NCBI GenBank assembly: GCA_949290055.1
Contig: CASEQJ010000002.1
Coordinates: 1 to 38,009, forward strand
Source of the DNA: an uncultured Olsenella sp.
Lineage (GTDB): Bacteria > Actinomycetota > Coriobacteriia > Coriobacteriales > Atopobiaceae
Length of the DNA: 38,009 bases
Direction: 5' to 3'
Shown here in pieces: positions 20,333 to 21,211 of this stretch. Position 1 is the first letter of the stretch; each line of letters begins with the position of its first letter. A program made the position numbers and the translations under genes. The notes below the pieces were generated by a model. That model searched no databases, was not told the DNA's origin, and worked only from the letters and a program-made list of their open reading frames with translations.

Positions 20333-21211
20333 ATGGGAGCCTCTGCAGGAAAGGGTCGCGCGTGGCTTGCGTGCGCGGCGTGTGCGCTGGCCATGGCGGC
20401 GCTGTTCGTTCTCGCGGTTCCCGCGCGGGCGGACGCCATGCAGATCTTTGTGAACACGCTCTCGGGAAAGCACATTACGATAGAGGCGGATTCCGGCGAT
20501 ACCGTCGATGATGTCAAGCAGAAAATTGCCAACAAGGAGGGCGTTCCCGTCGAGCTGCAACGTCTGATCTTTGCCGGAAAGCATCTCGAAGACGGGCACA
20601 CGCTCGCGGACTACAATATTCAGAAGGACTCGACGCTGCACCTCGAGGTGCGTGCGGTCGTCGCGGTCTTGAAGGAGGGGCAGGTCGTGACCGAGGCGAC
20701 CTATGGGGACACGCTCACCGTGGAGGCGCGAATGTGGGTGGGCAACTCTGCGGCCCCAGACGCAGCGAAGCTCTACCTCGGGGACGCCTCAGACGAGGGG
20801 AGCCTGATCTCCGAGGCACAGCCAACGGTTCAGGGTGGCGTTGCCACCGCCACCTTCAGCCTTGTGCTTTCGGGCGAGGCGTGGGCGCCAAGCGACGCGC
20901 CGCGCACGCTCACGGTGGTCTTAGGGGAGACGTCTGCCTCCGCCTCGCTCACGGTGCTCAAGGCTGCGACGCCGGAGCCGGAGCCGGAGCCCGAGCCCCA
21001 GCCGGAGCCCGAGCCCCCGGCCGAACCAGACCCCCAGCCCGAAACCACGCCAGCGACGGAGCCCGAACCTGCGCAGACGTCCGCTCGCGAGCCGCTTGCC
21101 GCCACGGGGGACATGCCTCTTGCGCCCGCCGTTGCGCTTGGCGCCGCCGGCGTCGCTGTTCTTCTCGCTCGCCGTTCGGTTATGTACACCCTTCGCAAGG
21201 AGCCGAAGTAG
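20333..21211 (+). CDS. Secreted, wall-anchored ubiquitin-domain protein
   Basis: A 292-residue surface protein. Signal peptide 1-35 (K7/R9, hydrophobic core, cleavage PARADA) ends exactly before Met36, so the mature protein begins MQIFVNTLSGK. Residues 36-107 are a full ubiquitin fold: 48 of 76 positions identical to human ubiquitin by hand alignment. The equivalents of K11, K27, K29, K33, K48 and K63 are kept; K6 is Asn, V70 is Glu, and the C-terminal LRLRGG is absent. Residues ~108-210 look like an Ig-like beta domain, 213-248 are a Pro/Glu stalk, then LAATG (255-259), a membrane helix and the tail RRSVMYTLRKEPK, an LAXTG signal for a class E-type sortase. The ubiquitin codons are 54% GC (117/216), below the surroundings, hinting at acquisition. 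Inference: a surface ubiquitin mimic acting on the host. Confidence 0.93.
   Translation: MGASAGKGRAWLACAACALAMAALFVLAVPARADAMQIFVNTLSGKHITIEADSGDTVDDVKQKIANKEGVPVELQRLIFAGKHLEDGHTLADYNIQKDSTLHLEVRAVVAVLKEGQVVTEATYGDTLTVEARMWVGNSAAPDAAKLYLGDASDEGSLISEAQPTVQGGVATATFSLVLSGEAWAPSDAPRTLTVVLGETSASASLTVLKAATPEPEPEPEPQPEPEPPAEPDPQPETTPATEPEPAQTSAREPLAATGDMPLAPAVALGAAGVAVLLARRSVMYTLRKEPK

Follow-up and report, generated by a model that had tools for sequence, protein, structure and literature searches.

The ubiquitin gene and its product

The window (the whole stretch of 38,009 nucleotides analyzed here) carries a ubiquitin gene between a divergent gene for a HAD-type phosphatase of 226 amino acids (19513 to 20193, minus strand) and aspS (23992 to 25761, plus strand), which lie on the two sides of the insertion site. 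The gene is an uninterrupted open reading frame on the plus strand, running from the ATG at 20333 to the TAG at 21209 to 21211, and encodes 292 amino acids, whose sequence gives the module order predicted signal peptide, ubiquitin, Ig-like domain, Pro/Glu stalk, and LAATG anchor, all on the plus strand.

The predicted signal peptide (residues 1 to 35, positions 20333 to 20437) is a hydrophobic N-terminus of the Sec type, whose ARADA end abuts Met1 of the ubiquitin; the original prediction had read it in the same way, and our call was made by eye together with a simple small-residue rule (ARADA-MQIFV).

The ubiquitin domain (residues 36 to 107, positions 20438 to 20653) was assigned by its Pfam match, its identity to human ubiquitin, and structural superposition. 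Residues 38 to 107 match the ubiquitin family (Pfam ID PF00240) with an E value of 6.9e-26 and 90.3 bits against a gathering score of 25.4. The 48 residues previously counted as identical to human ubiquitin were recovered, over 72 aligned residues (36 to 107) instead of the 76 given before. Structure prediction, which had been proposed as a check, yielded an AlphaFold2 model with block-mean pLDDT values of 84 to 96 between residues 41 and 210 (21 family sequences as input), where the head folds as ubiquitin and superposes on solved ubiquitins at 0.5 to 0.7 Å over 71 to 74 columns with 64 to 71% identity. Sequence and model thus confirm the domain as a eukaryote-type ubiquitin. It shares the beta-grasp fold with most prokaryotic ubiquitin-like modifiers (the ThiS, MoaD, SAMP, Pup, and BIL systems), whereas these are cytosolic, are conjugated or act as sulfur carriers, and have low identity to ubiquitin.

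The domain runs straight into the Ig-like domain, without the C-terminal Gly-Gly and without the LRGG end of human ubiquitin. Because the terminal Gly-Gly is absent, conjugation through E1 is not expected, and the roles as a substrate of E1 or of deubiquitinases that had been suggested are unlikely for the same reason. Six of the seven lysines are present (K11, K27, K29, K33, K48, and K63), K6 being replaced by N. Among the 36 heads of the window family, K48 is kept in 8 and is R in 25. Residues L8, I44, H68, and V70 form the ubiquitin face used by many ubiquitin receptors, and they are found in 36, 34, 36, and 32 of the 36 family heads, respectively, while positions 71 and 72 are mostly changed. 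The patch of the window head itself is not intact, as it has E at position 70 and N at position 6, and the kept patch positions could reflect the fold alone.

The Ig-like domain (residues 108 to 209, positions 20654 to 20959) was modeled as a beta sandwich with a pLDDT of 93 when residues 108 to 210 were submitted alone. Its PDB matches are Ig-like and other beta-sandwich structures, all weak (best E value of 2.9e-3, TM score of about 0.6), with no match at an E value of 1e-3 or better in the structure search of the model and no Pfam family reported for this region in the Pfam scan of the window protein. It is followed by the Pro/Glu-rich stalk (residues 210 to 252, positions 20960 to 21088), along which the pLDDT drops from 74 to 47, by the sortase-type motif LAATG (residues 255 to 259, positions 21095 to 21109), which is invariant in the 21-row family alignment, and by a hydrophobic stretch with a basic tail (21116 to 21208). 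The Ig-like region, the stalk, and the sorting signal therefore stand as they were first described.

In its sequence, the window protein resembles a sortase-anchored protein. It shares with the Gram-positive LPXTG-type surface proteins the signal peptide, a distal head, an Ig-like domain, a Pro-rich stalk, a sorting motif (LAATG here), the hydrophobic stretch, and the basic tail, but its head is a ubiquitin, and the single sortase found in the host is class B-like. One sortase match (Pfam ID PF04203) was found in each of the host genome, the congeneric genome G028, and the genome G021, with a class assigned for that of the host only, which scores 152.9 bits with the class B model and so falls just under the curated cutoff of 153.75. 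For this reason, the display on the cell surface put forward in the original prediction holds as far as the sorting features are concerned, and wall anchoring via LAATG stays a prediction from sequence.

Genomic context

The host genome is 94% complete and has a single ubiquitin match. The closest named relatives of the aspS product among the 120 matches listed belong to Collinsella (C. phocaeensis, 86%), and we refer to the host as Collinsella-like. The single-contig genome G028 carries a full-length orthologue of the ubiquitin gene at the same place, in a block of some 20 kb that is syntenic with the window and has 83 to 93% DNA identity to it. The surroundings of aspS were compared at 30 loci taken from 31 congeneric genomes. 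Two are occupied, namely, those of the window and G028; in 17, the HAD gene adjoins aspS with no ubiquitin gene between them (gaps of 215 to 755 bases in 16 and of 1,282 bases in one), and in the other 11, the flank is too short or another gene lies at the site.

A eukaryotic contamination or a chimeric contig had been named as what could undo the finding. Some other loci do look eukaryotic, for example, L028 from the wider scan described below and the small-contig matches in the genome G100. For the window, this explanation has a negligible probability and was ruled out: the orthologue in G028 lies in a syntenic block, the signal peptide and anchor are in one open reading frame with the ubiquitin, and the third codon positions are host-like (GC3 of 0.72 in the ubiquitin domain versus 0.81 in its own tail, with a window GC content of 0.67).

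With a view to E1, E2, or deubiquitinase genes, which would be expected next to the ubiquitin gene in a BIL-like conjugation operon, three nearby open reading frames were scanned and are, according to Pfam, a PTS EIIA, an AAA_14/DUF4143 protein, and one without a family, and no immunity gene was recognized among the neighbors looked at. For the AAA_14 plus DUF4143 ATPase gene (22394 to 23815), located between the ubiquitin gene and aspS, the G028 block contains no matching DNA. The open reading frame at 21447 to 22250 matches the end of a protein of about 940 residues, of which just this part is seen in the window and which is fully open before aspS in G003, G004, G014, and G017. An aspS RNA motif (RF02930) lies immediately upstream of aspS (23906 to 23986).

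A mosaic gene

Searching with the non-ubiquitin part of the protein returned 36 high-scoring Ig-stalk proteins, including the query, all of which have a ubiquitin head, and three weak Ig-stalk matches (E values of 8e-7 to 2.5e-4) without it. A PHI-type recombination test on 20 of the 36 family sequences (78 sites) gave a P value of 0.0002, the floor of 5,000 permutations; most of the input proteins come from metagenome assemblies, in which a chimera may pass for a mosaic. Compared with the window protein, P0102 shows 66% identity over residues 36 to 121 and 100% identity in the stalk and anchor, and P0118 shows the reverse, with 97% and 72%, respectively. Judged from these sequences, the gene of the window family is a recombining mosaic whose parts have different histories.

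The mean pairwise difference is 0.165 for the head, 0.178 for the Ig-like domain, 0.208 for the stalk, and 0.150 for the anchor. Within the head, the first half has a mean difference of 0.23 and the second half, with I44, K48, K63, and H68, one of 0.08. Between the window and G028, dS is 0.15 for the ubiquitin, 0.64 for the signal peptide, and 0.25 for aspS, and dN/dS is 0.41 for the head, 0.43 overall, and 0.11 for aspS. Since the head is no more variable than the other parts, and given these dN/dS values for the head and the whole protein, the comparison gives no indication of positive or diversifying selection.

Occurrence in Coriobacteriia

Ubiquitin matches were found in 3 of the 31 congeneric genomes, in 9 of 140 genomes of the family, in 12 of 396 genomes sampled from the class, and in 3 of 396 sampled from the phylum, with none in 14 well-known control genomes. 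Three of the nine family-level PF00240 matches were discarded as false, foreign, or cut: a PurN-like protein under the cutoff (G033), a protist-like contig (C484 of G100), and a match cut by the contig end (G092). Heads placed behind a signal in the same way are found in eight Coriobacteriia loci (L002, L003, L004, L005, L006, L156, L158, and L159), the exception to this placement being L157, where the ubiquitin lies inside a longer open reading frame with no adjacent signal peptide. The Coriobacteriia proteins have LPXTG-like ends and unrelated middle parts. The protein of locus L011 is the same as that of genome G105.

A mobile origin of the window gene was considered and rejected. P0001 had no match among 50,697 phage records and one match among 72,556 plasmid records, a protein composed of a signal peptide and a ubiquitin on plasmid pRUMAL01 of Ruminococcus albus 7. 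There, the ubiquitin gene (L171, 3932 to 4672) lies amid small hypothetical genes, a PI-phospholipase C gene, and a dockerin gene.

Ubiquitin heads with a predicted export signal across prokaryotes

When one genome of each prokaryote species was scanned, 493 places matched the patterns, and a ubiquitin relative is encoded at 410 of them. The best 80 of these 410 were examined, together with a further 8 loci from a viral collection; because similarity and two patterns, for positions 1 to 8 and 55 to 62, governed the choice of the 80, conservation is inflated in the genome set. By our own heuristic, ubiquitin Met1 is immediately preceded by a signal-peptide-like stretch in 71 of these 80 genome loci and in 5 of the 8 viral-collection loci. 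In 75 of these 76 signal-bearing proteins, A, G, C, or S occupies residue -1. The 71 genome heads fall under eight phylum labels, one of them archaeal, with two heads lacking a label; most of these loci come from metagenome bins, whose phylum labels can be wrong. The window gene, first regarded as a singular actinobacterial case, is thus one of many, with heads behind such stretches on several kinds of anchor. Fifteen of the 71 are titled as named strains or isolates, for example, Ruminococcus albus 8, Dyella acidiphila, and Pseudohaliea rubra, with Prochlorococcus AG-418-O03, also counted here, being possibly a single-cell genome. Two heads behind a signal-peptide-like stretch (L014 and L062) come from contigs whose bins are assigned to archaea, namely, Methanothrix and Methanotrichaceae.

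The 71 heads are 86 to 99% identical to human ubiquitin (median of 92%), a range biased by keeping the best matches, and 63 of them lack the Gly-Gly. Dyella sp. OK004 and Sphingomonas canadensis have a stand-alone protein composed of a signal peptide and a ubiquitin with a Gly-Gly end. Pfam was run on 75 of the 76 signal-bearing proteins, leaving out L089 with its masked bases, and the modules found behind the heads include Autotransporter (18 proteins), Dockerin (7 proteins), IPTL-CTERM (6 proteins), and SLH (4 proteins). The GC3 of the ubiquitin correlates with the GC3 of the tail in the same protein (r = 0.88, 66 loci) and with the GC content of the flank (r = 0.85, 75 loci), and across identity bands the mean pS is 0.77 to 0.88 against a mean pN of 0.04 to 0.18. 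As their third codon positions track the host and their synonymous differences are high, the bacterial heads look like resident genes.

The nine loci without a signal among the best 80 are of different kinds. L028, L030, L044, and L051 encode nothing but ubiquitin or polyubiquitin, possibly on contigs of eukaryotic origin; L028 is a four-repeat polyubiquitin that looks eukaryotic, like the small-contig matches in G100. L029, L048, L053, and L064 are other fusions, and L045 has just 12 open-frame residues upstream. The three viral-collection loci without a signal are L091, L092, and L096, where L091 (1996 to 2745) is a run of diverged ubiquitin repeats.

We consider it slightly more probable than not that these proteins represent a widespread bacterial surface display head, i.e., that a eukaryotic ubiquitin was domesticated, perhaps repeatedly, as the first mature domain on unrelated anchors (sortase, autotransporter, IPTL-CTERM, S-layer, and dockerin) in many phyla, where it would act as an extracellular recognition or weapon module without conjugation. 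In this view, BfUbb, the secreted ubiquitin of Bacteroides fragilis, would belong to the same class as a member lacking an anchor. Ubiquitin is very stable and protease resistant, and its constant place directly behind the signal peptide on unrelated partners would also suit a structural role, with the ubiquitin merely capping or protecting the mature N-terminus of surface proteins. Conservation by itself does not separate fold from function, but the kept receptor face and the mosaic gene are not readily explained by a cap, and we consider this a very improbable explanation.

Origin of the bacterial ubiquitins

A tree was built from 120 rows and 72 columns, with 40 of 144 eukaryote-type repeats and 80 prokaryotic rows, leaving out the diverged heads L003 and L159. 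On this tree, 14 changes are required to account for the eukaryote/prokaryote label, and a single prokaryotic clade gets a borderline result (p-AU of 0.05). D16, S22, and Q28 are more common in the bacterial set and are also found in the eukaryotic set. The nearest rows to the window head outside its own family agree at 53 of 72 positions for eukaryotic and 52 of 72 for other bacterial sequences; for the family consensus, these values are 54 and 56 of 72. The origin from a eukaryote stated in the original prediction is plausible from the sequence type, while the 72-column tree, with its eukaryotic rows, places neither the source nor the number of transfers.

Possible functions

For the window protein, we favor, at an evenly balanced level of confidence, a role of the ubiquitin as a ligand that would sit at the outer tip of a cell surface protein, would not be conjugated, and would bind a protein on neighboring cells. 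Following predicted Sec export, cleavage exactly before Met1 would leave the ubiquitin at the start of the mature chain, like native ubiquitin; the predicted sortase cleavage at LAATG would lead to wall anchoring, and the predicted stalk would raise the ubiquitin outward. The face of L8, I44, H68, and V70 would do the binding, since the family has largely conserved it, and the partner may vary or impose selection, as suggested by the shuffling of gene parts by recombination and the few relatives carrying the gene. Candidate partners are cells of the same habitat, such as protists, an animal host, or rival bacteria.

The nearest described precedent, as first proposed, is the ubiquitin BfUbb secreted by Bacteroides fragilis (Patrick 2011, PMC3352274; Chatzidaki-Livanis 2017, PMC5705921). 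The 2017 study counts this species among a few bacteria that have a protein of this kind. Following the published description, both are eukaryote-type ubiquitins behind a signal ending exactly before Met1 (in BfUbb, the cleavage site is exactly at the first ubiquitin residue; PMC5705921), and both are patchy in occurrence, without a C-terminal Gly-Gly and without a recognized immunity gene. They differ in that BfUbb, with 76 residues, is secreted as a free protein and was shown to be antibacterial, whereas the window ubiquitin is fused to an Ig-like domain, a stalk, and a sortase-type signal. The ubiquitin extension effectors of plant-parasitic nematodes are likewise exported ubiquitins with a C-terminal extension but, as described in PMC5705921, are eukaryotic, have a 12-residue extension that is cleaved off, and are not surface anchored.

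BfUbb inhibits other B. fragilis strains (PMC5705921), an activity left unmentioned in the original prediction. As BfUbb is the nearest tested relative, this makes a contact-dependent antibacterial weapon the strongest rival to a binding ligand: the displayed ubiquitin would inhibit rival strains, with contact through the stalk replacing diffusion. The parallel extends to the architecture, a signal peptide and a ubiquitin without the C-terminal glycine in BfUbb and a head likewise without Gly-Gly in the window, and to the neighborhood, where we recognized no immunity gene and where the data of the BfUbb authors suggest that none is needed (PMC5705921). The patchy presence in 3 of 31 congeneric genomes, the mosaic gene, and the reported antibacterial activity of an oyster ubiquitin missing its two terminal glycines (PMC10892293) would also suit a weapon. 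However, wall tethering is unlike a diffusible toxin, many relatives are on autotransporters or dockerins, and bovine ubiquitin was inactive in the BfUbb assay (PMC5705921), so that we regard this function as unlikely, although worth serious consideration.

The original prediction had also envisaged a mimic aimed at a host or protist. The surface ubiquitin would then engage ubiquitin-binding proteins, deubiquitinases, or antibodies, either as their ligand or as a decoy; receptors of extracellular ubiquitin such as CXCR4 are further conceivable targets. The eukaryote-type sequence and the largely kept face of L8, I44, and H68 are consistent with this, as is the action of extracellular ubiquitin on animal cells, for which the CXCR4 route is disputed (PMC10892293), and recombinant BfUbb inhibited ubiquitination in vitro (PMC3352274). 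On the other hand, the window head has no Gly-Gly for E1 or deubiquitinase chemistry. Heads behind a signal-peptide-like stretch are also found in Prochlorococcus, Rhodobacter, Sphingomonas, and Conexibacter, which are from free-living habitats, so an animal host offers no general explanation, and mimicry is in our view a rather doubtful account.

The window gene adds a variant with a predicted anchor to the known exported ubiquitin of bacteria. Searching the open-access literature, we found no title on an anchored bacterial ubiquitin, which speaks weakly for the absence of earlier descriptions.

Ubiquitin counts as a defining mark of signaling inside eukaryotic cells. If the remaining 330 places resemble the 80 examined, exported, tip-displayed, and mostly non-conjugatable ubiquitins would be encoded in hundreds of prokaryotic genomes, and bacteria would use ubiquitin as an extracellular module. 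Such proteins would provide a comparative set for the unexplained antibacterial action of BfUbb and would open cross-reactive anti-ubiquitin immunity and encounters with protists to testing. As 15 of the 71 carriers are named strains or isolates, work on cultured organisms is possible. In the complete genome of Verrucomicrobia bacterium IMCC26134, two neighboring genes each encode a signal peptide followed by a ubiquitin (L076, 5881 to 7709).
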